In this document: one piece after another, positions 13,180 through 52,209 of the stretch | Position numbering within the stretch: position 1 is the stretch's first letter | Layout of the letters: each line of letters opens with the position of its first letter | Virus record (IMG/VR): IMGVR_UViG_3300042514_001858 | Location: 62,001-126,000 of that record | Origin: a virus | Length of the DNA stretch: 64,000 nucleotides | Reading direction: 5' to 3' (one strand) | Translations under genes and position numbers: made by a program | Notes under the pieces: generated by a model | What the model saw: only the letters and a program-made list of their open reading frames with translations | The model's database searches: none | What the model was told of the DNA's origin: nothing

Positions 13180-13460
13180 TTCTTTCTCTTTTTCTGCTCT
13201 GAATTAATGTATTTCGTGATGAACTTACTACGTGAAATAGTAGGATCATAATCTAGAAACACTTTAACAAGTTCTTGGTCAGAGTCAAGAGATAAAATGG
13301 TTTTCAAAATTGTTTTTAGCCTTTCCTCTTGGAGAGTAGTCACGAAAACATTCTGAATGGATAATTTTTTTCCTTTAAGATGATTTATAAAGGAACAATA
13401 GCATAGAAAGAGGTGATTTGTTTCCTCTTCCACAATTTCTGATGATGGATCAAAGCTCAT
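13176..13460 (-). CDS. Hypothetical protein, 94 aa
   Basis: Predicted helical, with a basic C-terminus (NSEQKKRKK). It overlaps its upstream neighbour (DHH gene) and its downstream neighbour by 4 bp each (ATGA type). No family recognised. Confidence 0.5.
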   Translation of the reverse strand: MSFDPSSEIVEEETNHLFLCYCSFINHLKGKKLSIQNVFVTTLQEERLKTILKTILSLDSDQELVKVFLDYDPTISRSKFITKYINSEQKKRKK

Positions 13461-14356
13461 AATTCTGTAAGTGTTTCGCTGAATTTCAAAAATTCTTTGG
13501 TGATTTTACCTCCTGATGCCCATTCGCCGCCACCACCGTCACCACCGTCACACAGATTAGCAGCCATTTTAGCAATGTCAACCTCCGATCCTTTACATTT
13601 TCTAAAAGAAACGAATTTTGTATCAGGGTTCATTACAATTACAGCGTCTCCTTTATAATTTTCCATAATGGAATGGCTCAATTCATTCACGGAGAACTTA
13701 GAAATCGTGGAAATGACCTTAAATCCTTCCCATTCTCCTGTGAATAGTTGAATTTGCTCCAATTCTTTTTCTAATTCCTTGAAAAAACCTTCAGCAAGCT
13801 TAACTTCTGTGGTAGTGAACCCGTCAAACCCGTTCCAGAAGCGATTTACAAAATTAATAAAGCGATTTCCACCAGATTTACGATAAAGAGCATTGAGATA
13901 CTTGGTTTCTTCGTGTTTTAGATCATATGAATTGTAATCATCGACGTATAGGAAGAATTTTTTCAAATCTTTCGTAAATTCCACCTTTTCTTTGAATTTT
14001 TTATACAACATCTTGGTGCAAGATGAACATTCTTCCTGAATCATGGTTGAATCCCATGTTTTGAAGTCTTCGGGACGGTCTGAAACGAACACCACACGAT
14101 GATCGTCAATCTTTTTGATAAGATTTTGATCTAGAACCATGCCGACTACGAAGATTTTATCATAATCTTCTGCATTTTCTTTAGCCCATGGTAGATATTG
14201 TTCTTCAAACTTACCAAAAAAACAATGACGATACTCAAAATTCTTAAATAAATTACCTAAAAGAACTGTAGAACCAATACCATCCAAATCTGAGTTGACC
14301 CAAGCAAAGATACGTTGCATGTCATAATTACTCGGATTTAAAGAATTGTCAATCAT
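13457..14356 (-). CDS. DHH/DHHA1 family phosphoesterase
   Basis: The protein has 299 residues from the ATG at 14356. The N-terminal DHH domain starts FAWVNSDLDGIGS (D23, D25), then has VVGMVLDQ and the histidine motif IDDHRVVFVSD. The C-terminal DHHA1 part ends in a glycine-rich loop (DGGDGGGGEWASGGKI) that normally binds the substrate phosphate. Such enzymes (NrnA/RecJ superfamily) degrade short oligonucleotides or cyclic dinucleotides; either would fit nucleotide salvage or anti-signalling. A longer frame would start inside the attC-like site. The first ~85 codons are duplicated at 15123-15345. Confidence 0.72.
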   Translation of the reverse strand: MIDNSLNPSNYDMQRIFAWVNSDLDGIGSTVLLGNLFKNFEYRHCFFGKFEEQYLPWAKENAEDYDKIFVVGMVLDQNLIKKIDDHRVVFVSDRPEDFKTWDSTMIQEECSSCTKMLYKKFKEKVEFTKDLKKFFLYVDDYNSYDLKHEETKYLNALYRKSGGNRFINFVNRFWNGFDGFTTTEVKLAEGFFKELEKELEQIQLFTGEWEGFKVISTISKFSVNELSHSIMENYKGDAVIVMNPDTKFVSFRKCKGSEVDIAKMAANLCDGGDGGGGEWASGGKITKEFLKFSETLTEL

Positions 14357-14360
14357 AATA

Positions 14361-14449
14361 ACACAACATGTCGCTCCATCCAACGGCTCAAAGTCGTCTG
14401 TTTCGTATTCAGAGTCTTACGTTCGCCGTGGATGAGCTAGACGTTCGGC
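14361..14449 (+). other. attC-like recombination site A (left end of cassette)
   Basis: Boxes in order: R'' ACACAAC (14361-14367), 5-nt spacer, L'' GCTCCATCCAACGGC (14373-14387), a central stretch, L' GCCGTGGATGAGC (14425-14437), 5-nt spacer, R' GTTCGGC (14443-14449). L'' and L' are inverted repeats except for two extra bases in L'' (C14377 or its neighbour, and one A of the AA pair), which on the bottom strand are an unpaired G and T, exactly as in canonical attC hairpins. R'' does not pair with this site's R' but with the R' of site B, as expected after insertion of a cassette at G|TT. Confidence 0.75.
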
Positions 14450-14502
14450 AAAATAATCCCCCACCCCCCTCCTCCCGACGACAAAGAGAAACAACAAACA
14501 TT

Positions 14503-14781
14503 ATGACAGATAATACAAAGAAAGGATATTTTGATGAAAATCTCACTTTTGATGGGATACAGAAGACAATCGATGATTTAGTAACAAATTACCCAAATCA
14601 TATCGGCGTTATTACCGCAATTGGTAAGTTGGGTAGCTTAATGTCAATTTTACACGATGACAACAAAGAACAAAACCGACTAACAAAAATCCAGAATAGG
14701 CGAGTGGAGATTTTATCTTGGGTTGTCGGTGTTTGCACCTTGATTACGACATTTGCAACCATCATGAGTATCTGTAAGTGA
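14503..14781 (+). CDS. Cassette-borne small membrane protein
   Basis: The protein has 92 residues: a soluble helical N-terminal part (DGIQKTIDDLVTNYPNHIG), a charged linker (NKEQNRLTKIQNRR) and a single C-terminal transmembrane segment at about 69-91 (ILSWVVGVCTLITTFATIM). No family is recognised. The tail-anchored layout is frequent among small cassette proteins and membrane-acting defence or toxin proteins, but no function can be assigned. Its 3' end overlaps an antisense ORF (14713-14898) by 69 bp. Confidence 0.55.
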   Translation: MTDNTKKGYFDENLTFDGIQKTIDDLVTNYPNHIGVITAIGKLGSLMSILHDDNKEQNRLTKIQNRRVEILSWVVGVCTLITTFATIMSICK

Positions 14782-14898
14782 ATTACGGGCAAACCAATCC
14801 ATAATCTCTTTAACTTTTCTATCCTGTTCACGATTGAATGATTCTTGATATTCTTTTTCAGTGTCTCGTTTGTCAGCATTTGTAATAAATCTCCACAT
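14713..14898 (-). CDS. Possible second cassette gene, antisense
   Basis: A 61-residue frame from MWRFITNADK to the stop at 14713, charged and helical (RDTEKEYQESFNREQDRKV). It is open upstream through attC site B to an ATG at 15027, just downstream of a sigma70-like promoter at 15037-15064. A 104-aa hybrid (MKNKNKNN...) could therefore be made that includes translated attC. Convergent overlap with the plus-strand cassette gene makes it uncertain that both are real. Confidence 0.35.
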   Translation of the reverse strand: MWRFITNADKRDTEKEYQESFNREQDRKVKEIMDWFARNSLTDTHDGCKCRNQGANTDNPR

Positions 14899-14917
14899 CC
14901 TAGAAAAAAATGAAGAA

Positions 14918-15003
14918 GCCGAACAAGACGCTCCATCCAACGGCGAAAACGTCTTTGATTGTTTCGGACTCTGTTTGCGCCGTGGATGAGCTAGACGTTG
15001 TGT
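14918..15003 (+). other. attC-like recombination site B (right end of cassette)
   Basis: R'' GCCGAAC (14918-14924), spacer AAGAC, L'' GCTCCATCCAACGGC (14930-14944), centre, L' GCCGTGGATGAGC (14979-14991), spacer TAGAC, R' GTTGTGT (14997-15003). The L boxes are identical to those of site A with the same two bulged bases. The inner part pairs further (GGCGAAAAC with GTTTGCGCC, one mismatch), giving a longer hairpin than at site A. Confidence 0.75.
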
Positions 15004-15036
15004 ATTATTTTTATTTTTATTTTTCATAAGGTCTGT

Positions 15037-15064
15037 ATTGTATACTAGTTTTTAAGAAAGTCAA
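15037..15064 (-). promoter_or_regulatory. Early sigma70-like promoter reading toward the cassette
   Basis: Minus strand: TTGACT, 16 bp, TACAAT. The spacer contains TTAAAAACTAG as in the promoter at 6132-6160. It reads into attC site B and the antisense frame from 15027. It could also read through to the DHH gene. Confidence 0.55.
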
Positions 15065-15381
15065 CCATTTGATAATTTTTGCAATAAGTCCAATTCATCA
15101 TTGTCCATAATTTCTTCCTCATCAATCTTTTTGATAAGATTTTGATCTAGAACCATGCCGACGATAAAGATTTTATCATAATCCTCTGCGTTTTCTTTAG
15201 CCCATGGTAGATATTGCTCTTCAAACTTACCAAAAAAACAATGACGATACTCAAAATTTTTAAATATGTTCCCCAAAAGAATTGTTGATCCAATTCCATC
15301 CAAATCGCTATTGACCCATGCAAAAATTCGCTGCATGTTATAATTACCAATTTCTATAAAATTGTCAATAGGTGATTCCAT
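15061..15381 (-). pseudogene. Chimera: N-terminus of DHH protein fused to C-terminal tail of helicase gp41
   Basis: Residues about 10-85 repeat the DHH protein (MQRIFAWVNSDLDGIGS... to LIKKID) at roughly 85% DNA identity (15123-15345 against 14107-14332). At the IDE junction the frame switches to a close copy of the last ~19 residues of gp41 (EEEIMDNDELDLLQKLSNG against EEEIMDNNELSLLEKLSD). The catalytic histidine motif and DHHA1 domain are lost, so it should be inactive. The arrangement is the junction of an old tandem duplication of the gp41-tail to DHH-head interval. Confidence 0.8.
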
Positions 15382-15411: not shown

Positions 15412-16203
15412 TCAAATAACTCTTGGTTCATTTTTAGATTTAATTACATAGCTACTCATAACCTTGTTATATAAATCAGGTTGAACTTTTTTCAACCTAT
15501 CAAAACCTATCATAGATTTATTATACATCAAATATGTTCTTATTTTTGAAAATGATTCTTTGCGTTCAACACATTCAGCATCGTAAATATATTTAATATT
15601 TCTCTCCAATCTTGTGAATCCTTTATCACCATCCTCATAACCAAAATTTAAATACCACATAATGTTATCAGGATTTTTTGGAGTTGCAGTGGTAAAAAAC
15701 CCAATTTTAAATTTGGTGTTTTCTTTTGGTTCTTGGACTCTGTTTTGTAGGCTATTAAATCCGCGTTGCCCCACTTGTGTCGAACTAGGATTATGTCCAA
15801 CCGAATATACGGAATATGCATATGCTGGATTGGATGAAAAATAGACTGAATTTCCTATAGCTTTGGAATCTTCACCCTTGGAAAAGGGGTCGGGATTTTT
15901 ATGTCCCCTATACACCAAAGAACCATCTTTAGGTAAAGAGTCGAACCCCTCTTTCAAATAAAATCCGTAATATTTCATCACCTGCTCCAGATATTCGTTT
16001 TCATCGTTACGAATATCTTGGGTAATACTTCCACTTCCCATAGTTTGTTTATACTGAACTGCATCATCACGATTTTTTTTATAAGATGCAACATCTTTAA
16101 TGGAAAAGCTATCATCTTTTCGATCAAACATAGTTCCAAAAGGTCTATTACCTTCCCTTTTTTTTGTGACAAATTCTTCAAAAAATATTTTAAACGATAC
16201 CAT
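15412..16203 (-). CDS. Putative ADP-ribosyltransferase-like protein with head-targeting-like N-terminus
   Basis: The protein has 263 residues. The N-terminus MVSFKIFFEEF resembles T4 capsid-targeting peptides (MKTYQEFIAE type). Residues about 92-135 read DGSLVYRGHKN, a gap, then GNSVYFSSNPAYAYSVYS, resembling the first catalytic strand (R99) and the Ser-rich strand plus following helix of ADP-ribosyltransferases; a later YDAECVER could supply the catalytic Glu. T4 Alt is a packaged ADP-ribosyltransferase injected with DNA, so this could be its analogue. A late-type motif (ATTAAATAATGGA) precedes the ATG inside the end of gene 41. The fold assignment is tentative. Confidence 0.4.
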   Translation of the reverse strand: MVSFKIFFEEFVTKKREGNRPFGTMFDRKDDSFSIKDVASYKKNRDDAVQYKQTMGSGSITQDIRNDENEYLEQVMKYYGFYLKEGFDSLPKDGSLVYRGHKNPDPFSKGEDSKAIGNSVYFSSNPAYAYSVYSVGHNPSSTQVGQRGFNSLQNRVQEPKENTKFKIGFFTTATPKNPDNIMWYLNFGYEDGDKGFTRLERNIKYIYDAECVERKESFSKIRTYLMYNKSMIGFDRLKKVQPDLYNKVMSSYVIKSKNEPRVI

Positions 16204-18390: not shown

Positions 18391-19098
18391 ATGAACGAAT
18401 TTGATAAATTATTTGAAAAAGTTTTGACTGAGGGAAAATTCCGAAAGTCTTCAAAAGTTATCCATAAACTGGATGTTCCCATGTTTTCAATTTTTTTAGA
18501 TTCTAATTTAAAAGATGTCAAAAATGCAGAATTATGGAATGAAGTTACAAGAGCATTTCAAGAAGCAAAAACACAAATTAATAAAACAGGATTTCAATCA
18601 ATGCATGTAAATGCAGTGTTTGCGAAACCATCTAAAAAAGATGAAGCGGGAGAGGCATTTGGCGATCCTCGGAAGAAAAAATATGAAAAAGACTTAAAAT
18701 ACATCACTCTCGATGTTAAATTTTTAATTGGTTTACAATTAAAAAATAAAGAAATTTACCAACAATTGATCAAAACAATTATTCATGAGTGGGGTCATGT
18801 TTGGATGTTTAATAAAGGTGAATCTTTTTTCACAGCGGTTAAAAGATTTTATCGTCAATTAACAAACAATGATCCCAGATTAAAAAATGATAAAAAACTG
18901 AGAGATGTTTTAGCAAAACTCACCGACTTTCCTCGTTCTTACGGTTTAAAAGATTACCATGAAATGTGGGCAGTGTTGGTTGAACGTTTTTTAGATTTGA
19001 ATCCAGTATACAGGAAGAAAATTTTTGAGTTGATGGATACCAATGAACCAAGATGGGAGCCTAATAGTAAACAAAAAAAAGAAACTAATACTAAATAA
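18391..19098 (+). CDS. Putative head-packaged zincin metallopeptidase
   Basis: The protein has 235 residues from the ATG after the late motif. IIHEWGHVWMF (H132, E133, H136) is a perfect HExxH zinc-peptidase motif, and 55 residues later YHEMWAVLVERFLDL offers E191 as third ligand in a gluzincin-like arrangement. The N-terminus MNEFDKLFEKVLTE, with Gly next, has the (L/I)-x-E end expected of a T4-type capsid-targeting peptide cut by the prohead protease. It may be packaged and injected to cleave a host protein, or act in particle maturation. The family is not recognised beyond the motif. Confidence 0.6.
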   Translation: MNEFDKLFEKVLTEGKFRKSSKVIHKLDVPMFSIFLDSNLKDVKNAELWNEVTRAFQEAKTQINKTGFQSMHVNAVFAKPSKKDEAGEAFGDPRKKKYEKDLKYITLDVKFLIGLQLKNKEIYQQLIKTIIHEWGHVWMFNKGESFFTAVKRFYRQLTNNDPRLKNDKKLRDVLAKLTDFPRSYGLKDYHEMWAVLVERFLDLNPVYRKKIFELMDTNEPRWEPNSKQKKETNTK

Positions 19099-40115: not shown

Positions 40116-40853
40116 ATGAAAATTGCATTCGCAGGGGCGCACAATACTGGAAAATCGACACTTATTAAGTCATTTTTACAAAAATGGCAAATGTATAAAA
40201 CACCGTCGAAAACATACAGAGATATTATCAAAGAAAAAGATTTGAAACATTCTTCCAATACCACAGCCGAAACACAATTGCTTATTTTGGATTGGATGAC
40301 AGAGACTTTAGAAGTTAATAAGGATGAGAAATATGTCGTCTATGATCGTTGTACTTTGGATAATTTGGCATATACTCTTCATGCTGCTGAGAAAGATTTG
40401 ATATCGGAGGATGTTCTCGGAATTACTGTAGATATTGTTCGACGTTCTCTGAAAAATCTAGATATTATTTTTTGGATTAAATACGATCCCACTATCAAAG
40501 TTGTAGCAGACGGATTACGGGATACTAATTTGAATTATATTCAAGAGATTGATGATATCTTTGCTGGTCTTTATGAACAATATTCAGATCAGCTTGAGAA
40601 CACACCATTCTTCATTGCTGATGATATGCCAGCAATTATTCCCATTGAAAATATCCCGAATCTTGATGATCGAATTGCTTGGATAGGAGAATTTATTGAT
40701 CAAAAAGGCGAATTAATTGAAACACAGGACAGTATCCTCGATCCTAAAAATCTGGAGATGATGGAACAAATGCTAAAAGATCAGAGTCAATGGACGGAAA
40801 AAGATAATGAATTCAAGAATATCACAAATCAAATTAAGAATTTTAAAATATGA
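40116..40853 (+). CDS. P-loop ATPase/kinase (AAA_28/NadR-like)
   Basis: The protein has 245 residues. The P-loop is GAHNTGKST (7-15). YVVYDRCTLDNLAY (about 84) fits the substrate-binding D-R of nucleoside/NMN kinases, and IIFWIKYDP follows. The C-terminal 50 residues are charged and helical. It may phosphorylate a nucleoside or a sugar precursor. It is first in the plus-strand glycan operon and overlaps the next gene by 4 bp (ATGA). Confidence 0.65.
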   Translation: MKIAFAGAHNTGKSTLIKSFLQKWQMYKTPSKTYRDIIKEKDLKHSSNTTAETQLLILDWMTETLEVNKDEKYVVYDRCTLDNLAYTLHAAEKDLISEDVLGITVDIVRRSLKNLDIIFWIKYDPTIKVVADGLRDTNLNYIQEIDDIFAGLYEQYSDQLENTPFFIADDMPAIIPIENIPNLDDRIAWIGEFIDQKGELIETQDSILDPKNLEMMEQMLKDQSQWTEKDNEFKNITNQIKNFKI

Positions 40854-41698
40854 GTGAAAAAATCGGAGTTGGTATTATCACATGTGGAAGAAAATCCATG
40901 TTTGAGAAGCTTTTCAATTCTCTTTTGGATTGTGGTGAACAAATTGATTATTTATATGTGGTTGAGGATACTAAAACCAATCGCAGTTATGATGATAATT
41001 ACGCTGTCGATATTGCAAGATCTTGGAAGGGTGAACACATCACAGTGTTCACCCCAACTGCAAATTTAGGTGTCGCCAAAGCTAAGAATAGCGCATTGGC
41101 GCATCTTCTTGATGCAGGATGTGATCATATCTTTCTGATTGAAGATGATATGTTTATTAAAAATCCAAACATCTTCCAAGCATATATCGACGCTTCTAAG
41201 AAAAGTGGTATTCAACATTTGATGTTTGGTTATCATGGACCAGCTAATAAAAATGGAATCTCTCGTGGTAAACCATATCCTCGATTGGTTGTTGATTATG
41301 GGGATTTCTCTCTCGCATTTAATCAGCATTGCGTTGGGGCATTTTGTTATTATTCCAGTAAGTGTCTAGAAGATGTCGGTCTAATCGATGAAAAATTTCG
41401 TAATGCTTTTGATCATGTTTCCCATAGTTATGAACTCGCTTTAAAGGGTTATTCCACTCCTTATTGGTGGTGGGCTGATCTGGCAAATTCTTTGGATTAT
41501 ATTGAAGAACAAGCGTGTTCAGAGGAAAATTCGTCCATCAAGACACCTGAATCCATGCAGAAATGGAGTGATAATATTCGAAGTTCCATGGAGTATTTCA
41601 AAGAGAAATTTGGCGTATTCCCGTTTGGGAATGATGGTGTCCTAGATACGAGAGAACAGGAAGTATTGACATTTTTGAAAAATACTATAAATCATTGA
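40850..41698 (+). CDS. Glycosyltransferase family 2
   Basis: The protein has 282 residues. GVGIITCGRKSMFEKLFNSL is the nucleotide-binding start, NLGVAKAKNSAL the helix of GT2 enzymes and FLIEDDMFIK (about 97) the acidic motif. The C-terminal half contains AFDHVSHSYELALKGY. It transfers a sugar in the glycan pathway encoded by this operon. It follows the ATPase by ATGA overlap and is followed one base later by the next transferase. Confidence 0.75.
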   Translation: MSEKIGVGIITCGRKSMFEKLFNSLLDCGEQIDYLYVVEDTKTNRSYDDNYAVDIARSWKGEHITVFTPTANLGVAKAKNSALAHLLDAGCDHIFLIEDDMFIKNPNIFQAYIDASKKSGIQHLMFGYHGPANKNGISRGKPYPRLVVDYGDFSLAFNQHCVGAFCYYSSKCLEDVGLIDEKFRNAFDHVSHSYELALKGYSTPYWWWADLANSLDYIEEQACSEENSSIKTPESMQKWSDNIRSSMEYFKEKFGVFPFGNDGVLDTREQEVLTFLKNTINH

Positions 41699-41699
41699 A

Positions 41700-42509
41700 A
41701 TGAAATCCGACTTGAATAATATTGGCTTGATGATTCATTTCCGTAGGGACGTGGATGATCGATTTCGCAATCTAGAAATGGTTGTAAAATTCTATCGTGA
41801 AAATTCTGAAAATCTCCAAATCGCCATTCTGAATGATGATAAGGAATTGGATGGGGACTTCAAAAGACTCTGTAAGCAATACGATTGTAAAGGTCTTTTT
41901 ATGGTAAATCATGATGTTTATTGGAGAACCAAGGCATTCAATGAAATGTCTAAGATTCTGGAAGTTGATTATCTGATTGCGGGAGATACTGATGTGATCG
42001 TTGATCCAAAATATATTCTGGAAGCGAAGCAATTGTTCGATGATAATGTGGGGATCGTGTATCCTTACGATGGAATGTTCATTCATTTGAAGCAACCAAT
42101 GTTTGAAAAATTCATCGCAGATCAATCCTTAGTTGATCTATTGGATAAATCTAAAGCACTTAAACCAATCCCATACGATCAGGATGAGAATTTTCTCGTT
42201 GCACATCCCCAAAGCAAGGGAGGAATGGTTATGTTTAGTAAAAAAGCTTTTACCGAATGTAATGGGTATAATCCAAATTTTAGAGGATGGGGTTATGAAG
42301 ATGATGAGATCTTAGCTAGATTTCAAAAAATGGGATGGGGGATTTTGAGAGTTGGTAATAAAGAGGCAATAGCGTGGCATCTACCTCATGAAAATACAGT
42401 GAGAGAAAAACACCAATACTATGATAATAATCGGAAACACTCCGATTTCGTTTGTGGTAATACTAAGTGGGAAGATTTGGAAAAATATATTTGGAGTTGG
42501 ACACTGTGA
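41700..42509 (+). CDS. Glycosyltransferase with GalNAc/Gal-transferase-type C-terminus
   Basis: The protein has 269 residues. The N-terminal region is MIHFRRDVDDRFRNLEMVV; DYLIAGDTDVIVDP (about 93) holds the D-x-D metal motif; GYNPNFRGWGYEDDEILARF (about 195) is the hallmark of the galactosyltransferase C-terminal domain (Glyco_transf_7C). It is one base after the previous transferase and shares a GTGA overlap with the next. Confidence 0.75.
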   Translation: MKSDLNNIGLMIHFRRDVDDRFRNLEMVVKFYRENSENLQIAILNDDKELDGDFKRLCKQYDCKGLFMVNHDVYWRTKAFNEMSKILEVDYLIAGDTDVIVDPKYILEAKQLFDDNVGIVYPYDGMFIHLKQPMFEKFIADQSLVDLLDKSKALKPIPYDQDENFLVAHPQSKGGMVMFSKKAFTECNGYNPNFRGWGYEDDEILARFQKMGWGILRVGNKEAIAWHLPHENTVREKHQYYDNNRKHSDFVCGNTKWEDLEKYIWSWTL

Positions 42510-43204
42510 AACCTAGATTTTCCATATGTGTTCCCGTTTGGGAGCAGCACGGATTTGGTCTTCAGTATTTGAAAGATCTGATCCATTCAATCCAAATCCA
42601 AACATTTCAGGATTGGGAGATTGTGATTTCTGATCATAGTAAAAATTTTGATATTTTTGATTTTTGTTTAGCGGAATCGGAGAAAGATTATATATTACGA
42701 TATTTCAAATACGAGGAAAATTATGGTAATGGTGTTGCCAATCTCAACAATGCTCTGAAAAGAGCGGAAGGAGAAATCATCAAGATCATGTTTCAAGATG
42801 ACTTCATGTTTGATCGTAGATGTTTGGAGAAATTCGATAAAGCATTCCAATGTGAAAATAATAAATGGGCTGTTTGTGGGTGTAATCATACGAGAGATGG
42901 TGTGAATTTTGATAGATTCATGGTTCCGTCTTGGAATGATAGATTGTTGGAAGGTGTGAATACAATTAGTTCTCCGTCCGTGCTATCTTTTAGAAATGAA
43001 AATATTGAATTGTTTGATGAGAACTTGACAATGCTCATGGATGTGGCATACTATTATCGAATGAATAAGCACCACGGATTACCCACGGTGATTGAAGACT
43101 GCTTGGTTACTAATCGGTGTCATGAGAATCAGATCAGTAGCAGGTATTCAGGAAATTTAGAAGACGAGATAAAATATTGTAAAGAAAAATATGATAGTAA
43201 CTGA
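42506..43204 (+). CDS. Glycosyltransferase family 2
   Basis: The protein has 232 residues from the GTG at 42506, which overlaps the upstream stop (GTGA). A longer frame exists but would overlap 43 bp. RFSICVPVWEQHG and DWEIVISDHS form the nucleotide-binding part; IIKIMFQDDFMFD (about 91) is the acidic motif. It overlaps the next gene by 14 bp. Confidence 0.72.
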   Translation: MKPRFSICVPVWEQHGFGLQYLKDLIHSIQIQTFQDWEIVISDHSKNFDIFDFCLAESEKDYILRYFKYEENYGNGVANLNNALKRAEGEIIKIMFQDDFMFDRRCLEKFDKAFQCENNKWAVCGCNHTRDGVNFDRFMVPSWNDRLLEGVNTISSPSVLSFRNENIELFDENLTMLMDVAYYYRMNKHHGLPTVIEDCLVTNRCHENQISSRYSGNLEDEIKYCKEKYDSN

Positions 43205-44087
43205 AATATACAATGGACAGGGATTAGGTAATCAACTTGCTTGTTACGTGACAACAAGAGTCGTTGCCAAAGATAAGGGATTTGATTTTGGGATTATGAA
43301 TCCCCATAAATTTAAATGTTTGGATTTTATGGATTTAGATTTTGGATTACCCGTGATAGGTGGATATTCAGAAAAAGAAGGCGATATACCCATTACTTTA
43401 CCAGATGGTATTCAACATTCTTTCAAAGAAAGATGGTTGTATCTCTCAAATGGTTCCAATGTAACTATCGATGATCCTAATTTAGAATTGATTCAAGATA
43501 ACACACAAATTATCGGAATTTTTCAATCGGAAGATCGTATCATCCACCGCAAAGATGAAATTAGGCAGTGGTTGAAAATTAAACCAGAAAAGGATTGTTA
43601 TGATTATTCTGATCCAAATATCTGCATCATTAATTATCGTGGCGGGGAATATGCAAGTGTTGCCGATTTTCATTTGAATGGAAAGTATTGGGATGATGCG
43701 ATTACCAGAATGAGACAAATTAACCCAAATTTTAGATTCGTTGTTATCACTGATGATGTAGAAAGAGCAAGCAGACAATTCCCTGATTTTGAAGTGAAAC
43801 ATTATGATATTGGAACAGATTTCACTATTATCAAGAATGCTCATTATTTGATTTTATCAAATTCCAGCTTCCCGTATTTTGCCACTTTACTAAGTGATAC
43901 TGTAAAGTATATATTAGCTCCTAAATATTGGGGTCGCTATAATATATCAGATGGTTATTGGGCATGTGGCTACAACATTTTCAGGGATCATGTCTATATT
44001 GATAGGGAAGGAACATTGTTTGGATATGATGAATGTGTGGCAGAATTTGAAGAGTATAAGAAACGCGACCCCAATTTTTGGAAATGA
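43191..44087 (+). CDS. GT11-like fucosyltransferase
   Basis: The protein has 298 residues. YNGQGLGNQLACYV at the start, INYRGGEYASV in place of the HxRRGDY loop, and LILSNSSFPYFATLL near the C-terminus are the three motifs of alpha-1,2-fucosyltransferases (GT11). The substrate would be GDP-fucose or a similar sugar. It overlaps the next gene by 4 bp. Confidence 0.65.
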   Translation: MIVTEIYNGQGLGNQLACYVTTRVVAKDKGFDFGIMNPHKFKCLDFMDLDFGLPVIGGYSEKEGDIPITLPDGIQHSFKERWLYLSNGSNVTIDDPNLELIQDNTQIIGIFQSEDRIIHRKDEIRQWLKIKPEKDCYDYSDPNICIINYRGGEYASVADFHLNGKYWDDAITRMRQINPNFRFVVITDDVERASRQFPDFEVKHYDIGTDFTIIKNAHYLILSNSSFPYFATLLSDTVKYILAPKYWGRYNISDGYWACGYNIFRDHVYIDREGTLFGYDECVAEFEEYKKRDPNFWK

Positions 44088-44875
44088 TCTACGACATTTT
44101 TAGCTTTAATAACGAACTTGACATGTTGGAATTGAGATTGAATATTCTCGATCCCTACGTGGATAAATTTGTATTGGTAGAAGCGGATAAGACTTTCAGT
44201 GGTGTTGATAAGCCTTTGTATTACGAAGAGAATAAGGAACGCTTTGAGAAATTCCATGACAAGATTATTCATTACAAGGTTCTAGATTCTCCAACATCGT
44301 TTGATGATCCAAATTGCGATCAGGAAATCTTACAGATGGCACTCAACAGTGATATGGTAACACGAGAACATATATGCTGGGTCGTTGAATTTTATCAGAA
44401 AGAATCTATTAAAAAAGCTTTAATTAATTTGGAAGATGACGATATTTGCATAATTTCTGATGTTGATGAAATATGGAATTATGATATATCATTATCTCCA
44501 AATGGGGAAGAAATTTTGAAACCATTAATTAATAATTGCTATATAGAATATCTTAACGTTAAAACAAATGAAAATTGGACATATTTTACTGGTCCTATAA
44601 TCACTAGATATGAAAATATTAAAAATATTAATCCAATGTGTCATTTAAGAGTATTGAAAAAATTTCAACATCTCTATAAGTTTATAGAGAATGGTGGATG
44701 GCATTTTAATGCTTTGGGTGGAATACAGAAAAAGATTGAAGATTTTAAGCATCCAGTATATCATAGTGGATACATGGAAATGAGAAAAAATGGATATAGA
44801 ATAGACGAAGTAGGATTGCCTATATTCATTTTAGAAAATATGGATAAATTAAAAAATAAGAAATTAATATTATAA
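44084..44875 (+). CDS. GT17-type glycosyltransferase
   Basis: The protein has 263 residues from the ATG at 44084 (ATGA overlap). IYDIFSFNNELDMLELRLN, then FVLVEADKTFSG, and ICIISDVDEIWN are the signature of family 17 (bisecting GlcNAc-transferase-like) proteins, common in large phages. From about 44400 on, the DNA turns more AT-rich than the upstream genes. Confidence 0.75.
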   Translation: MIYDIFSFNNELDMLELRLNILDPYVDKFVLVEADKTFSGVDKPLYYEENKERFEKFHDKIIHYKVLDSPTSFDDPNCDQEILQMALNSDMVTREHICWVVEFYQKESIKKALINLEDDDICIISDVDEIWNYDISLSPNGEEILKPLINNCYIEYLNVKTNENWTYFTGPIITRYENIKNINPMCHLRVLKKFQHLYKFIENGGWHFNALGGIQKKIEDFKHPVYHSGYMEMRKNGYRIDEVGLPIFILENMDKLKNKKLIL

Positions 44876-44876
44876 T

Positions 44877-45503
44877 ATGAATATAGAAAATAATGGAGAA
44901 AGAATGGATATTGATTATTTCAATATGGAGTATGAAAATTTTGACATTTATCAGAAAAGTCATTATAAAAGATATGAATTTGCTAAAACTTTAATGAACG
45001 AAGGTGATATTGTCGGAGATATGGCATGTGGTTCTGGGTATGGTAGTATGATGCTTTTAGAAAAAAGTAAAGAAGTTTATTCTGTCGATATTGATCCAAT
45101 CACTATCAATGAAGTTGCTAATAGATACGAAAATGAAAATATCCATTTTGTTGTTGGAGATTTAATAGACCTAAAAGTTGAAAATAAATTTGATAAGATT
45201 GTCTCATTTGAAACACTGGAGCATTTTACTCCAGATGATTTGAAAAAAGTCATAACAAATTTTCACAAAGCCTTGAAAAAAGATGGTAAATTAATTTTTT
45301 CCACTCCTTATAATCAAGAACAATCAGAAGCATCGATGAGATTTCATAAGACATTCTACATAACAGAGAATACCATTAATCAATTTTTCAAAAATTTATT
45401 CGAGATTGATATAATCAAATATCAAGATTATCAAACACATACTGTAAAAGACGATGATGGGAATAAGAATTTTATTATAGGAGTTGTTAAAAAAATAAGT
45501 TAA
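44877..45503 (+). CDS. SAM-dependent methyltransferase
   Basis: The protein has 208 residues. Motif I is VGDMACGSGYGSMML (about 46-60), the acidic residue is in VYSVDID, and motif IV is KIVSFETLEHF. It is a class I small-molecule or sugar methyltransferase fold and probably O-methylates a sugar in the glycan or a sugar-nucleotide. Confidence 0.75.
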   Translation: MNIENNGERMDIDYFNMEYENFDIYQKSHYKRYEFAKTLMNEGDIVGDMACGSGYGSMMLLEKSKEVYSVDIDPITINEVANRYENENIHFVVGDLIDLKVENKFDKIVSFETLEHFTPDDLKKVITNFHKALKKDGKLIFSTPYNQEQSEASMRFHKTFYITENTINQFFKNLFEIDIIKYQDYQTHTVKDDDGNKNFIIGVVKKIS

Positions 45504-45507
45504 AAAT

Positions 45508-46242
45508 ATGAAAAAAATAAATAAAAATTTTGTAGTTGTCAGTGATTACAATTGGCTACCTGAAAATCTTGAAGATTCTTGGGTTGATAAATGGTGTGAA
45601 AATTATCTAATTTATGATCGTTATCATCGATTTCCCGAATCTGAAAAAGTAAAGCATCAGAAAAATGTGGGGCAGAATGTTTATGATATATTCCATTTTA
45701 TTTTAGAAAATTATGACAATCTTCCCGATTCCACATTGTTTTGTCGTGCGTGTCTAATGAATCAAAAGGATACTGGAACTCCACGATACGATGAAAATGG
45801 CAGGATCATCTCTAATGGAAATTGCACGGAAGAATTTTTTCTTGATATTGCTAACAACACTAGATTTACAGAGATTCAAGATTTCACCAGTGAGCCTTGG
45901 AGGATAAATTATATCGAAAATGCTATTGGACCTGAAAATAGTTATCTTGAGCGCAATACTTCATGGTATTTTGGAAAACATCAGGGAAAATATTATTCAA
46001 ATATTAATGATTTTTTCAATGACATGTATGAAAATCCTGAGATTCCACCTTGGTTTAGATTTGCACCAGGTGTTAATTACATCATCCCAAAGGAGTATAT
46101 TTTGAAATATTCGAGAAAATTTTATCAACGAATTCTTGATATTCTCGGATGGGATGTTATTGTTGGAGAAGCTCATATGATTGAGCGAGCATTGTGGACA
46201 ATATTCCATAATGATTGGAAAGTTAAAGAAGAATATAGATAA
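45508..46242 (+). CDS. DUF3431-like glycan-locus protein
   Basis: The protein has 244 residues. YDNLPDSTLFCRA, PPWFRFAPGVNYIIPKEYIL and the C-terminal GEAHMIERALWTIF match the pattern of DUF3431 proteins, a family placed among glycosyltransferase-like enzymes and often found in sugar loci. Its exact reaction is unknown. Confidence 0.55.
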   Translation: MKKINKNFVVVSDYNWLPENLEDSWVDKWCENYLIYDRYHRFPESEKVKHQKNVGQNVYDIFHFILENYDNLPDSTLFCRACLMNQKDTGTPRYDENGRIISNGNCTEEFFLDIANNTRFTEIQDFTSEPWRINYIENAIGPENSYLERNTSWYFGKHQGKYYSNINDFFNDMYENPEIPPWFRFAPGVNYIIPKEYILKYSRKFYQRILDILGWDVIVGEAHMIERALWTIFHNDWKVKEEYR

Positions 46243-46791
46243 TGCAACCATTTAAGAAACATCCCACCCCCCGCCGAAACATTCAACCATACCGAATTTT
46301 TTGATCTGTTGTTCAAATGGATTCGTCCAGAACACTATCTTGAACTTGGTGTGAGGCATGGAGGCAATTTTGTCACGCTTGCCAAACACTGCAAAAAAGC
46401 AGTCGGAGTGGATATGATTCCTGCTGAATTTGGTTTGGAGGGTAATATGGAATATCATCAAAAAACAACTGATGATTATTTTGAATCATTAACTACTGAA
46501 CAATTTGATGCCGTGTTTATTGACGCTGATCATTCTCATCAACAATCTTTGAAAGATTTTAACAATGTAAAAGATAGAGTGATCGAAGATGGATTTATTT
46601 TCTTCCATGATACCTATCCTTGGGATTGGTCTATGACTGACAGAGGACAATGCGAGGATGTTTATAAAACTGCGAAACATATTAAACAAAATTTAATAGA
46701 TGATTTTGAAATCATAACTTTACCTTTCAATCCTGGAGTAACAATTTGTAAAAAGATTTCCAGAACGAAACAAATGATCTATGACTGGTGA
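46242..46791 (+). CDS. SAM-dependent methyltransferase, apparent frameshift at a C6 tract
   Basis: The body (from about 46270) reads IPPPAETFNHTEFFDLLFKW, then HYLELGVRHGGNF (motif I), KAVGVDM and AVFIDADHSHQ, a Methyltransf_24-type enzyme. It is clearly coding upstream of the first in-frame start (TTG at 46309), but the only ATG (46242) is in another frame: MQPFKKHPTP, then six C, then the frame must shift +1. Five C would join the frames. Either a sequencing error, a phase-variable tract or +1 frameshifting explains it. Confidence 0.6.
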
Positions 46792-47710
46792 AAAAATTTT
46801 CATAACGGGCGGTGCTGGATTTCTTGGTAGAAATCTAATTCGTCGCTTACATCAAGATAATGAAATCACCGTGTATTCACGCGATGAGTCCAAACATTAT
46901 TATCTAAAAAAAGAATACCCAAAAGTAAATTTTGTGGTTGGGGATATTCGCAATCGTGATCTATTGATTAGAAAATCAAGGTATCATACGATTGGTATTT
47001 TTGCAGCATCTCTGAAACAGATTGAAGCCTGTAATGACAATTATGAAGAAGCTTCAAAAATCATTATCGATGGTGCAATCAATTCCAGAATTGCAGCAGA
47101 GGAAAATAATTTCAAAGCTGCTTGCTTCATCTCATCTGATAAAAGCAGAGCAGCAACTACAATTTATGGTGCAATGAAATATGTAGCTGGTGAGTGTTTC
47201 ATTGCAGGTAAATCAAATTGTAACCTAACTACTGCCGTATATGGAAACGTAATGAATTCCACAGGATCGATTATTCCTTTGATATGGGAATATATCAAAA
47301 ACGGTAAAACACTTTCTCTCTATGGAGAAGAAATGACAAGATTTTTATTGGATGTTGAAGATGCTGTAGATTTGATTTTGAAATCTTTAAAGTATAAAGG
47401 ATGTAATGTTATCCCAGATTTAAAATCGTTTTTTGTAGTCGATCTTTTCAATATTTATAAAGAAAAATTTGGATTAAAATATGAAATTTCTGAACCTAGA
47501 ACTGGTGAAAAAATTCATGAAATCATGGCTTCTTCTGAAGAAATTAGACGAATGAGTTATGAATATGCTGATGATATTTATTTGATGTATCCACATAAAG
47601 ATTTAAATATGGTAGAATTTTCAAAAAATGAATATTCTTCGAGAGATAGTTCACTTGAATATATAGAACTTGAAAAATATTTAAAATCTAAAAATTATTT
47701 TAAACCATGA
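46781..47710 (+). CDS. NDP-sugar dehydratase/epimerase (CapD/PseB-like SDR)
   Basis: The protein has 309 residues. The Rossmann start is FITGGAGFLGRNLI. Catalytic residues are in CFISSDKSRAATTIYGAMK (Ser/Asp-Lys and Y-x3-K). The C-terminal part contains EPRTGEKIHE, typical of the UDP-GlcNAc 4,6-dehydratase/5-epimerase branch. It makes a deoxy-sugar precursor for the operon's transferases. It overlaps the upstream gene by 11 bp. Confidence 0.75.
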   Translation: MTGEKIFITGGAGFLGRNLIRRLHQDNEITVYSRDESKHYYLKKEYPKVNFVVGDIRNRDLLIRKSRYHTIGIFAASLKQIEACNDNYEEASKIIIDGAINSRIAAEENNFKAACFISSDKSRAATTIYGAMKYVAGECFIAGKSNCNLTTAVYGNVMNSTGSIIPLIWEYIKNGKTLSLYGEEMTRFLLDVEDAVDLILKSLKYKGCNVIPDLKSFFVVDLFNIYKEKFGLKYEISEPRTGEKIHEIMASSEEIRRMSYEYADDIYLMYPHKDLNMVEFSKNEYSSRDSSLEYIELEKYLKSKNYFKP

Positions 47711-48504
47711 AAATTATAGTATTTGGAAGCACTGGAATGTTGGGAACTTATTGTGTCAAGTTTTTCAAACAAAAAGGTTATACGGTATTACCAGTAGATA
47801 GAGAAATGTTAGATTTGACATCATCTCATGAAAATATATTAAATTTTTTGATATCGAATGTTTCTAGTGTGGATGTTATAATTAATGCTGCTGGTGTTAT
47901 TAAACAACGAAACACTGATATAGGTGATATGTATAAAGTTAATACTATATTTCCTCACATTTTATCTAAATTTAAAATGGAAAATGGGTGTAATGTTATC
48001 CATATAACGACTGATTGCGTGTTTAGTGGTAAAGATGGGTATTATAATGAATCATCTTTACCTGATTGTGAAGATGATTACGGTAAATCTAAATTATTAG
48101 GCGAAGCACCTAATTTATCAATCATTAGGACTTCTATTATTGGTGAAGAAATTAATAATAAATTATCATTACTTGAGTGGTGTAAGTCTAAACGCGAACA
48201 AACTGTCTATGGATATGTCGATCATTATTGGAACGGTGTAACATGTTTAGAATTGTGTAAAAGAATAAATCAATTATTGGAATATAAATCGTTTTGGGAG
48301 GGTGTTAGTATTTTACATTCACCAGAGATCGTATCGAAGTATAATTTAATCAATATGATTTCCGATGTATTTGATTTACAAATATCAATAACTCCAAAAA
48401 TCGGTGGTAAATGTTATAGAAATTTACAAAATGTGCGATGCATACCGACAGCATCATTGAAACAACAATTAGAAGAATTGAAAGAATTTAATATATATGA
48501 ATAG
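47707..48504 (+). CDS. RmlD-like NDP-sugar reductase
   Basis: The protein has 265 residues. The NAD(P) loop is VFGSTGMLGTYC, then VIINAAGVIK, ITTDCVFSG and DDYGKSKLLGE with Y-x3-K-type catalytic residues, as in dTDP-4-dehydrorhamnose reductases and the related WcaG/Fcl-type enzymes. Together with the preceding dehydratase it forms a two-step route to an activated deoxy-sugar. The overlap is 4 bp (ATGA). Confidence 0.75.
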   Translation: MKIIVFGSTGMLGTYCVKFFKQKGYTVLPVDREMLDLTSSHENILNFLISNVSSVDVIINAAGVIKQRNTDIGDMYKVNTIFPHILSKFKMENGCNVIHITTDCVFSGKDGYYNESSLPDCEDDYGKSKLLGEAPNLSIIRTSIIGEEINNKLSLLEWCKSKREQTVYGYVDHYWNGVTCLELCKRINQLLEYKSFWEGVSILHSPEIVSKYNLINMISDVFDLQISITPKIGGKCYRNLQNVRCIPTASLKQQLEELKEFNIYE

Positions 48505-49261
48505 TTGCTATGTAAATGTTATTGGTGGCGTGGGCAATCAGTTATTTCAAATAGCTGCTGGTTATGCTTATGCCAAGAAACATGGTAAGAAATTGATCAT
48601 CAACCCTTATAATTGGTTTGCTGGTCAGGGGTCTAATCCTCTAGTGTATAAAGATAACATTTTTAAAAATTTTGAATATGGTAATTATAGTGGAAATGTC
48701 GTTCCTATTCAAGAAAAAAGATTTAATTATGATGAATTACCCTTCATAGAAGGCTCTGTATCATTGAATGGATATTTCCAATCTTTGAAATACTTCGAAG
48801 AATACAAAGATGAATTTATTTCTTTATTGAACTTGCCAGAAGTCGATGTTCTTCCTAAATGGGGAAACAATCTGAATATTGCATTTCATATAAGACGAGG
48901 TGATTACTTGAACCATGCAACAATACATTATGTGTGTAGAACCGAATACTTTAATAAATTATTTGATATTTTCACACCTGAAATAGTAAAGAATACTAAA
49001 ATTCTTGTATTTACAGATTCACCCGAAATTGTTTTAGAAGAATTTAAAGGCAAAGAATTTATTATAATGAAATCAGATTCTGATATTAAAGAACTTGCAT
49101 ACATGTCAAAGTGTGATATCGTAGTGGGGAGCAACTCTACCTTTTCTTGGTGTGCAGCTTTGATTGGTGATAAGACATCTTATTTCCCTTCCAAGTGGTT
49201 CGCAGATGGTGGAGAAGCGACTGATATTTACTACGATAAAATGATTAAATGTAATGTTTGA
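48497..49261 (+). CDS. Alpha-1,2-fucosyltransferase (GT11)
   Basis: The protein has 254 residues. GGVGNQLFQIAAGYAYA, AFHIRRGDYLNH and VVGSNSTFSWCAALIG are the three conserved GT11 motifs. The donor is probably GDP-fucose or the deoxy-sugar made by the preceding two enzymes. It overlaps both neighbours by 8 bp. Confidence 0.82.
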   Translation: MNSCYVNVIGGVGNQLFQIAAGYAYAKKHGKKLIINPYNWFAGQGSNPLVYKDNIFKNFEYGNYSGNVVPIQEKRFNYDELPFIEGSVSLNGYFQSLKYFEEYKDEFISLLNLPEVDVLPKWGNNLNIAFHIRRGDYLNHATIHYVCRTEYFNKLFDIFTPEIVKNTKILVFTDSPEIVLEEFKGKEFIIMKSDSDIKELAYMSKCDIVVGSNSTFSWCAALIGDKTSYFPSKWFADGGEATDIYYDKMIKCNV

Positions 49262-50033
49262 AATTAATAAAATATATAATGAAAATTGTCTGGATACTAT
49301 GAATAGTATGCCAGAAGAATCCATTGATTTAACTGTTACCAGCCCTCCATATGATGATTTGCGAACTTATAATGGTTATTCTTTCGACTTTGAAAATGTA
49401 GCCAAGGGGCTTTTCAAAGTCACTAAGAAAGGTGGAGTTGTTGTTTGGGTAGTTGGTGATCAGACAAAAGATGGTGATAAATCTGGAACGAGTTTCCGAC
49501 AAGCTCTTTACTTCAAAGAAATTGGCTTCAAATTACATGATGTCATCATTTATGAGAAGAGTGGTGTCTCACCAGTGAAAAATAGATATTACCCTGCATT
49601 TGAATATATGTTTGTTTTATCCAAAGATAAAATCAAAACATTCAATCCTATTTGCGATAGACCAAATAAATGGAGAGAGCGTTGGGGTAAGACTCGCCAA
49701 CGTAGAAAAGCAGATGGAACTATGGGTGAGAAATATGAAAGTAAGATTGCTCCTGAATTTGGTATTCGACGTAACATTTGGAAGTATACACAAGGAGGTG
49801 GTTATGGGTCTGATGATAAAATCGCATATAAACATCCAGCAATCTTTCCCGAAAAATTAGCAGAAGATCATATTTTAAGTTGGTCAAATGAAGGCGATTT
49901 GGTATACGATCCATTCATGGGAAGTGGGACTACTGCTAAAATGGCAAAGCTAAATAATAGAAATTACATTGGTAGTGAGATCAGTGGGGAATATATAAAC
50001 ATCATCAATAATCGCTTATGTTTAACACAATAA
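49254..50033 (+). CDS. DNA methyltransferase (beta class)
   Basis: The protein has 259 residues. TSPPYDDLRTY (about 29-39) precedes DPFMGSGTTAKMA (about 222). It is the same class as the enzyme at 34459 but clearly different in the middle. It sits inside the glycan operon, overlapping the fucosyltransferase by 8 bp and the next gene by 16 bp. It is an orphan; it probably modifies phage DNA against restriction. Confidence 0.8.
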   Translation: MFEINKIYNENCLDTMNSMPEESIDLTVTSPPYDDLRTYNGYSFDFENVAKGLFKVTKKGGVVVWVVGDQTKDGDKSGTSFRQALYFKEIGFKLHDVIIYEKSGVSPVKNRYYPAFEYMFVLSKDKIKTFNPICDRPNKWRERWGKTRQRRKADGTMGEKYESKIAPEFGIRRNIWKYTQGGGYGSDDKIAYKHPAIFPEKLAEDHILSWSNEGDLVYDPFMGSGTTAKMAKLNNRNYIGSEISGEYINIINNRLCLTQ

Positions 50034-50278
50034 ATCACATTCTTTTTGATAAGAAAGGGGAGATGACAAATGAATTGTTGGAAGAGTTCTCTCCTTATAT
50101 GGTGACTCGTTACTTGAGTTTCTATGATAAAGATCTGTTGAATTATGCTAATGAGACAGTGAACAGATACTCACAGATATTCGATACGGATGAAGAAGCA
50201 TTTCGATTCTTTGAAAATGTGATTCCCAAATTGAAACGAAAAAATATCAAATATATATCCAAAAAAAGAGAAAAATGA
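50018..50278 (+). CDS. Small protein resembling clamp-loader subunit gp62
   Basis: The protein has 86 residues. EFSPYMVTRYLSFYDKDLLN, the following YANETVNRY and the end FFENVIPKLKRKNIKYISKK resemble the core of T4-type gp62 (KDYSKFMVENALSQ... pattern), the small clamp-loader subunit, but it is half the length. It lies oddly within the glycan operon, overlapping both neighbours. Another role is possible; no gp44 partner is in the window. Confidence 0.4.
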   Translation: MFNTINHILFDKKGEMTNELLEEFSPYMVTRYLSFYDKDLLNYANETVNRYSQIFDTDEEAFRFFENVIPKLKRKNIKYISKKREK

Positions 50279-50889
50279 ATGCTTTAAATAATTTTTTCAA
50301 AAAAATCTATTGTATAAATTTGGATAGACGACCTGATCGTTGGGAACATGCTTCCAAACAATTTGAAAAATTTGGAATAAATGTTGAGAGATTTTCTGCA
50401 ATAGATCATGAACATTTGGATAACATACCTCCAAATATTAAGCGAGGAGCATACGGATGCACATTAAGTCATTGTGGAATAATTGAAAAGTGTAAAAACG
50501 ATAATGTTGAAAATGTTTTGATTTTTGAAGACGATGTTGTATTGGACGATGATATTTTAAACGTTTTTGAAAATAATATAAATCATATTCCGAGATGGGA
50601 TATGATTTATTTTGGAGGGTATCACATACATCGCCCAACGCACATAGAAAAAAATATCTACAAATTGCATTATAGCTATGCGTTGCATAGCTACGCATGT
50701 AATCACACCATGTATGATATTTTACTAAAACTCGAAAACCATATTTGTTTTGATGTTAGTGTAGCAGAAATCCATAATACGCATGATTGTTTTTTACTTA
50801 CCAAAGATGACGGTTCATCTTTGACAAAACAATATTTAAATTTTAGTGATATTGAAAATGGATATAAAGATTATACGAATATACTATGA
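50275..50889 (+). CDS. Glycosyltransferase family 25
   Basis: The protein has 204 residues. IYCINLDRRPDRW at the start, GAYGCTLSHCGIIEKC (about 58) and NVLIFEDDVVLDDD (about 78) are the GT25 (LPS galactosyltransferase) motifs. Overlap by 4 bp (ATGA) with the upstream gene and 4 bp with the next. Confidence 0.8.
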   Translation: MNALNNFFKKIYCINLDRRPDRWEHASKQFEKFGINVERFSAIDHEHLDNIPPNIKRGAYGCTLSHCGIIEKCKNDNVENVLIFEDDVVLDDDILNVFENNINHIPRWDMIYFGGYHIHRPTHIEKNIYKLHYSYALHSYACNHTMYDILLKLENHICFDVSVAEIHNTHDCFLLTKDDGSSLTKQYLNFSDIENGYKDYTNIL

Positions 50890-51653
50890 AAGCACTTGTT
50901 GTATGTCCAACTTATGGAAGACTCCCTTATCTGGGGAGATTGTTAGCATCATTTTTACATCAAGACTATGATGACAAGCATTTGGTTATCATCAATGATG
51001 ATAAAAAAATCACATTGGAATGTGATTATGATAATGTCACTGTTATGAATTTGACCAAAAAGATATCGGTAGGGGAAAAAAGAAACTTGGGGGCAGCATA
51101 CGGACATTTTGATGTGATACATCCATGGGATGATGATGATATTTTCTTACCCAACCGTTTATCAAATCATATGAAACAATACGCCGATCCTTCTGTGGAA
51201 GCATACAGAAATTTTCCCTCATATACTATATATGCGGATAAATTTGCTTCGTGTAGTGGGGGGACGAACAATAAATCATATCGAAAAAAAATGTTTTTTG
51301 ATGTTGGAGGATATGGCAGCACTAATAATTTTCAAGAAGATGCGGAATTACATCACAAATTAAGAAATTTTAAAAAAGATGAAAATGAAAATGAACGCGA
51401 TTTTGTTTATGGATTTTCAACATCTAATTTTCATTTATCGTGTCAACCCACGGAATTACAAATACAAAAAATTTCATATGACCAATTAATAGAATTAAAT
51501 TTATTAAACAAAAAATTTATCATAACGCCTGACTTCGATGAATATAATAAATATCTACTGTTAGATGAAATTTTTAAAAAAAAGGGTGAAAGTATTGAGA
51601 TTGATGTCTTACCAAATGGTAAAATTAAAATACTAAATGTGGACAATGAATGA
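50886..51653 (+). CDS. Glycosyltransferase family 2
   Basis: The protein has 255 residues. ALVVCPTYGRLPYLGRLLAS starts the fold; ISVGEKRNLGAAYGHFDVI and HPWDDDDIFLPNRL (D-D-D-D) form the donor site; FQEDAELHHKL fits the general base region. It is the last intact plus-strand gene of the operon; the following plus gene is broken. Confidence 0.75.
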   Translation: MKALVVCPTYGRLPYLGRLLASFLHQDYDDKHLVIINDDKKITLECDYDNVTVMNLTKKISVGEKRNLGAAYGHFDVIHPWDDDDIFLPNRLSNHMKQYADPSVEAYRNFPSYTIYADKFASCSGGTNNKSYRKKMFFDVGGYGSTNNFQEDAELHHKLRNFKKDENENERDFVYGFSTSNFHLSCQPTELQIQKISYDQLIELNLLNKKFIITPDFDEYNKYLLLDEIFKKKGESIEIDVLPNGKIKILNVDNE

Positions 51654-51726
51654 TTACGTATTCATGCATATTCCCAACGCAGGTAGAGGATCAATCCTCC
51701 ATATAAAAAGATTCCAAAAATTGTGA
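51646..51726 (+). pseudogene. Remnant of a second sulfotransferase-like gene
   Basis: ATG at 51646 opens a 26-codon frame reading NDYVFMHIPNAGRGSILHI, which looks like the first strand and phosphate loop of family-2 sulfotransferases (FxHIPKxAGTS). It ends at 51726 inside an opposing gene. It overlaps the upstream stop by 8 bp, as operon genes here do, so it is probably a truncated next gene cut by arrival of the inverted segment at 51691. Confidence 0.35.
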
Positions 51727-52209
51727 TATTCTTTTATTATATTCAATTGCTAAGTTCTTTCCCTGCTCTATTGAAATCCCGTTTCTTTTGTGTAGGGACG
51801 TGGCAATATCTTTAAGATTTCTATAACATACAACAAATTGAGGATTTGGTAGATGTTTATACCAAGCATCTATGGTCAATGATGTTCTAGGATCTTTAAA
51901 CCCCCAACTTTCCATATTTTTACTCTGTGCTGTTGCAACCTCATCAGCGACGATCCGTTTAATATGATCTTCATAATTTTTACCAATTTCAATTATTTTT
52001 TCTCTTGGTGGGGGATCAAACCAACTACCACCAGAATTGTGTAATATCTCATCATTTATTTTAATTATCTCAATGTTTTCATAATGACCCTTTGGATTGT
52101 CTACTAATCCGATCAACAATTTTTTTCCCATATGAACTTCAGAATTTAAAGTTCTGGCAACTAATGAGGTTGCTGATCTATGCATTCCCAATACGACTAT
52201 TGTTTTCAT
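51691..52209 (-). CDS. Sulfotransferase-like protein
   Basis: The protein has 172 residues. VVLGMHRSATSLVARTL is the PAPS 5'-phosphate-binding loop at the N-terminus; WGFKDPRTSLTIDAW and VVCYRNLKDIATSL fit the second (3'-phosphate) site. It would transfer sulfate from PAPS to a glycan, adding to the decoration made by this locus. It is on the minus strand with a GT2 gene, overlapping it by 4 bp. Confidence 0.65.
   Translation of the reverse strand: MKTIVVLGMHRSATSLVARTLNSEVHMGKKLLIGLVDNPKGHYENIEIIKINDEILHNSGGSWFDPPPREKIIEIGKNYEDHIKRIVADEVATAQSKNMESWGFKDPRTSLTIDAWYKHLPNPQFVVCYRNLKDIATSLHKRNGISIEQGKNLAIEYNKRISQFLESFYMED

Follow-up and report, generated by a model that had tools for sequence, protein, structure and literature searches.

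The gene at 18391-19098 of the window (the whole stretch of 64,000 nucleotides analysed here) probably encodes, with a probability of about 0.6, a gluzincin protease that is packed in the phage head, trimmed by the S77 prohead protease, injected and directed against a host protein. The fold, the catalytic motif and the N-terminal tag of this protein (P0001) are supported by computation; zinc binding, activity, packaging, injection and the target are what we infer. The window comes from a 154,167-base record (G000) of an uncultured, T4-like virus, in which a DnaB-type helicase, UvsX, the major head protein and the prohead protease are all strong PHROG matches; the prohead protease belongs to the S77 family (Pfam S77, E = 8e-30). 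The gene and the conserved elements of its predicted catalytic domain are:

18391-19098, plus strand: zincin gene, 235 amino acids, supported by the open reading frame and by homologues in 20+ viral contigs
18604-18606, plus strand: conserved His72 (SMHxN) that precedes the core strand 73-78; present in 20/21 family members, strand predicted
18784-18798, plus strand: HEWGH zinc-binding/catalytic motif (H132, E133, H136) within helix 120-160; present in 21/21 members, secondary structure predicted
18940-18963, plus strand: YX6E motif with the predicted catalytic Tyr184 and the putative third zinc ligand E191; present in 21/21 members

The first-pass annotation had called attention to HEWGH, to a later glutamate in YHEMWA and to an N-terminus closing in LTE and Gly, and the reading frame, coordinates and residues it gave are exact; E191 (codon 18961-18963) lies in Y189-H-E191-M-W-A. 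By itself, an HExxH motif is weak evidence because it arises by chance in 0.66% of shuffled versions of this sequence (n = 200,000). A second, paralogous copy from G000 (464 amino acids, from G000:152529 onwards) and an alignment, used as queries against viral contigs, recovered 14 and 30 loci, respectively, that partly overlap, and 21 members, the paralogue included, were aligned. The family is divergent, with a median pairwise identity of 30% (range 22-95%), so the invariance of H132, E133, W134, H136, Y184, G185 and E191 in all members puts the motif far beyond chance. The other invariant positions are M31, F32, A59, I63, G67, N74, G87, F146, F200 and I211. Loss of HExxH in relatives, which had been set as the refuting test, is not seen: HEW[AG]H and the downstream Y-x6-E-x-[WF]-[AS] are present in 21/21 members, with 55 to 336 residues separating the Glu from the second His. 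The comparison with an 86%-identical relative (dS 0.40, dN 0.074, dN/dS ~0.19) indicates purifying selection on the gene.

The MtfA and anthrax lethal factor proteases have a common core in which the HEXXH helix is followed by a helix-turn-helix with a YX6E motif (PMC6356308). The Y184-x6-E191 segment is an exact match to this motif in 21/21 members, and the invariance of Y184, G185 and E191 had been noted in the alignment before the paper describing it was consulted. All members thus combine HExxH with a downstream Glu as the putative third ligand, as in gluzincins (clan MA), and have the order of elements of the MtfA/lethal factor core (M90/M34); the E-x-[WF]-A helix also resembles that of M90. 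The family differs from MtfA and the lethal factor catalytic domain in its variable His-Glu spacing, its phage head tag and the absence of toxin delivery domains.

The AlphaFold2 model of the window protein (pLDDT 78.4, pTM 0.75) contains strands 73-78, 87-90 and 104-108, then the HExxH helix 120-160, and places E191 in helix 189-201. This succession of a helix, three strands, the HExxH helix and the Glu helix agrees with the order that Iyer et al. (PMC5512222) give for zincins. A Foldseek search of the model against a viral library gave as the top match (E 4e-4) a phage protein of no assigned function, and also ranked high a 'putative peptidase' of phage PaBG and an M34-annotated phage protein. 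The matches in the PDB are weak (best E 0.15), with gluzincins prominent amid noise, and because this search was uninformative, a second model was built, of a compact relative, L017 (AlphaFold, pLDDT 73.4). Lethal factor (M34) entries occupy 21 of the first 22 ranks of the PDB matches of this relative, the exception being LTA4 hydrolase (rank 4), and ArdC and abylysin lie lower; the best match (E 0.006, probability 0.93) is weak at TM ~0.3, and identity in the fold matches is ~14%. Given such low TM-scores, the zincin fold is backed by the consistency of the matches, not by any single strong one.

No Pfam family reaches its cut-off for the zincin, and the sub-threshold matches of the 21 members are to SprT (12/21), YgjP (11/21) and M90 (7/21). 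The best M90 match, in L055, scores 25.8 bits (cut-off 26.2) over the Glu helix; the gathering score is reached in none of the 21 members, and the window protein shows no M90 match. The Pfam model of the polyvalent-protein MPTase has no match in a scan of the 21 members at E 0.1; the window protein is a single-domain one. Neither the family profile nor L017 had a relevant match when the PDB was searched by sequence, and the PHROG matches of the family are weak and without function.

SprT and YgjP, which yield most of the Pfam matches through the surroundings of HExxH (HEWAHLWMFNNSKxF), carry a third His zinc ligand shortly after this motif. The aligned position in the family is Asn or Lys, the best scores (19.8/25.6 and 23.0/26 bits, respectively) are below the cut-offs, and an assignment to SprT or YgjP was rejected on both grounds; the invariant candidate for the third ligand is instead the distant Glu. 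The first-pass annotation had proposed a gluzincin with E191 as the third ligand. This residue sits in the invariant YX6E motif, which, with the order of elements in the model and the lethal factor matches of L017, lends the proposal independent support, and we regard the family as predicted gluzincin-type metallopeptidases.

It is highly improbable that the protein is a catalytically dead zincin fold that serves as a binding protein or decoy, since the family shows no variation at E133, at either His, at E191 or at Y184. The idea gains some substance from the replacement of HExxH by an invariant HRIGH in a protein encoded beside the paralogue, which suggests that packaged proteins with such a fold may include inactive ones. 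This 284-residue protein (L005:610-1464, G000:C1 ~151662-152516; directly upstream of the paralogue) contains H-R-I-G-H and EFYHEAFA, with H130, R131, H134, E206 and E210 invariant in 11 relatives, and from its sequence resembles a zincin in which Arg stands where the catalytic Glu would be. Its relatives mostly start like MNKDEISLQQIYQEMAL, and the one in L071 starts with MKSFKEFYLSE instead, as if two kinds of tag-like N-termini could be swapped for each other. The I-Y-x-x-M form of N-terminus is found again in several other G000 proteins.

The second part of the argument concerns the N-terminus of the window protein, MNEFDKLFEKVLTE|G, which closes in VLTE|G:

18391-18432, plus strand: putative capsid-targeting propeptide, residues 1-14 (MNEFDKLFEKVLTE); F4 and E14 in 19/21 members, likeness to T4 IPIII/IPI
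18430-18435, plus strand: predicted prohead-protease cut E14/G15 (LTE/G) by the gp21 rule; [LIV]xE in 20/21 members, S77 gene present

In T4, the prohead protease gp21 cuts after L/I-x-E; the first 10 residues of IPIII are enough for targeting, positions 4 and 7 being important for targeting and positions 8 and 10 for processing (PMC9026906). With cut points set by the gp21 rule, IPIII starts with MKTYQEFIAE/A and IPI with MKTFKEFTSTTTPVSTITE/A, ...TITE/A. The zincin family has N-termini of the same form, such as MISFHEYFLIRE/A, MLSFKEYILTE/G, MITFKHYIIRE/G and MIKFKEYVLLRE/A; only L055 lacks a clear site under the [LIV]xE pattern applied. For the window protein, as for its 86%-identical relative, a first-match rule chose LFE; the site that aligns with those of the family is LTE14. 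The S77 protease is encoded in the records of 6/9 relatives, the remaining three being possibly fragments. Across G000, [LI]xE[AGS] within residues 6-25 occurs in 10/110 reading frames, against 3.1 +/- 1.6 expected from matched internal segments; the plain [LI]xE, a common motif, is not enriched near the N-termini (25 against 20.8 expected). The propeptide likeness, the specificity of gp21 and the presence of an S77 homologue in the same phage, the combination typical of T4 internal head proteins, support the earlier suggestion of a targeting-like N-terminus, and residues 1-14 are best described as a predicted propeptide.

The start at 18391 gives the best match to the N-termini of the family and appears to be the most fitting choice. 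Two alternative in-frame starts, 18334 (TTG) and 18355 (ATG), would both give a longer N-terminus, and the 12 codons 5' of 18391 are largely kept as well in the 86%-identical relative, which makes 18391 a provisional start.

The gene is on the plus strand, flanked by replication genes on the minus strand; it lies beside the helicase and UvsX genes and away from the head module. The T4-type late promoter TATAAATA is not found at the gene and occurs at chance-level frequency across the window. The gene that follows could be co-transcribed with it, and their order is preserved in the relative L003:

19103-20746, plus strand: gene for a 547-residue protein, 4 bases 3' of the zincin gene; tag-like N-terminus MRNYSFGYLVEKVQTLNE|M

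This location, next to the helicase and UvsX instead of late genes, is what would be expected if the zincin were a non-packaged protease made during infection, with an N-terminus that merely looks like a tag; [LI]xE is short and common, and the SprT-like and ArdC-like proteases of jumbo phages are presumed to be intracellular factors (PMC7824862). Such a role seems quite unlikely because the tag-like features are the conserved part of the N-terminus: F4 and [LIV]xE are kept among 30%-identical members in which the other N-terminal residues vary. In addition, neighbours of the zincin in relatives bear near-identical tags, namely MKTFLQFLIE/SA in L018 and several copies of MKDFKTYFE in L017. A single reading frame in L020 fuses the zincin to an ART-PolyVal domain (32.5 bits against a cut-off of 31.2) and a tag-like N-terminus, with LTE/N between the domains, so that the tag-like start is retained at the ART end of the fusion. 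Proteins with an ART-PolyVal domain have been predicted to enter the host by injection (Iyer et al. 2017, PMC5512222).

Neighbours of the zincin in relatives begin with MKDFKTYFES, MKSFKQYFEE, MKTFLQFLIESA or similar sequences, and tag-like N-termini occur in 24% of the zincin neighbours compared with 13% of the window reading frames, a modest difference (p = 0.035). In G000, the genes clustered around the paralogue at 145-154 kb have N-termini that look like tags. In the window, one gene upstream of the zincin is of this type:

15412-16203, minus strand: ADP-ribosyltransferase-like gene with the tag-like N-terminus MVSFKIFFEEFV; YRGHK...VYFSSNPAYAY, a likeness by eye only

This gene has no Pfam or PHROG match; a protein similar to its product is encoded near the zincin in L014. 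A SAM lyase gene near the paralogue (L058:2225-2923, G000:C1 147225-147923; PF23780 above cut-off) has a tag-like N-terminus ending in LLQE/S and possibly encodes a packaged anti-restriction enzyme. Five adjoining genes lie beside the zincin in L017 (L017:1793-5153); FKTYFE[SA] occurs close to the N-terminus in four of them and the fifth begins with MKPFIEYFYEA, as if a set of tagged paralogues had expanded there.

The tag would equally place the zincin in the prohead core if it worked there as a second maturation protease, acting on the scaffold, on neighbouring proteins or on fused domains. There are parallels for this role, which the first-pass annotation had named as its alternative: Iyer et al. 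proposed autoprocessing by the MPTase of DdrB-type proteins (PMC5512222), and a maturation role has been proposed for the group 1 jumbo-phage zincin (PMC7824862). The distribution of the gene makes it unlikely. It is patchy, with two diverged copies in G000 and one in the near relative G001, and lies among replication genes outside the head module of a phage that already encodes S77. Furthermore, no homologue was found among 50,697 phage records (megablast of 20 kb; tblastn with four family members), whereas a factor central to maturation would be expected to be conserved along with the capsid genes. No homologue came up in the 84,980 species genomes of bacteria and archaea that were scanned, and the family is therefore known here only from uncultured viral contigs.

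Under the preferred reading, that of an injected protease, residues 1-14 would target the protein to the capsid and anchor it in the core of the prohead, and the gp21-type S77 protease would cut behind LTE14; the head would then contain the mature enzyme, to be ejected along with the phage DNA. Once inside the host, Zn2+ would be bound by H132, H136 and E191, with E133 as the general base and Y184 assisting, and the enzyme would cleave one or a few host proteins, defence or regulatory ones, ahead of phage gene expression. The variable-length insert close to the active site could set the specificity. At somewhat less than even odds, the family as a whole may be an undescribed class of T4-like internal head proteins, MtfA/lethal factor-type proteases delivered at time zero, with each variant cutting a different host protein and co-packaged with ADP-ribosyltransferases and a SAM lyase.

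The first-pass annotation's candidate packaged metalloprotease is supported, but its remark that an injected one would be unusual goes somewhat too far. Iyer et al. (2017, PMC5512222) had already predicted zincin domains in injected polyvalent proteins of phages, also as effectors acting on host proteins; an HExxH domain is present in the N4 virion RNA polymerase, and the SprT-like and ArdC-like proteases of jumbo phages have likewise been proposed to cut host proteins (PMC7824862). The present family resembles the polyvalent-protein MPTase in the presence of a zincin in a supposedly injected phage protein, the variable insert between HExxH and the Glu helix, the upstream conserved His and, in L020, the fusion to ART-PolyVal, and differs in that most members are small standalone proteins with a T4-type tag. 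With T4 IPI, IPII, IPIII and Alt it shares a short, aromatic-containing N-terminus followed by [LI]xE/A or G, a gp21-type protease in the same phage and an accessory, fast-diverging character; the payload is a predicted metalloprotease as opposed to an ADP-ribosyltransferase or a nuclease inhibitor. In a limited literature search, a T4-type tagged standalone gluzincin or a packaged phage metalloprotease had no direct precedent beyond the papers on polyvalent proteins.

The T4-type injected enzymes known so far act on host proteins by modification or inhibition. If the reading is correct, a protease carried in the head would instead destroy such proteins ahead of all phage gene expression, and this would add a new immediate-early step, of host takeover or of counter-defence, to the infection by large environmental phages. 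The head tag could also serve to find whole sets of packaged effectors.

Two other regions of the window deserve mention. At 13457-15381 on the minus strand, the reading frames 13457-14383 and 15061-15381 share a near-identical N-terminal sequence (NYDMQRIFAWVNSDLDGIGSTVLLGNLFKNFEYRH...), which suggests a recent partial duplication. Finally, 40850-52949 is a long stretch of reading frames that, judged by sequence, resemble glycosyltransferases, methyltransferases and sugar epimerases.
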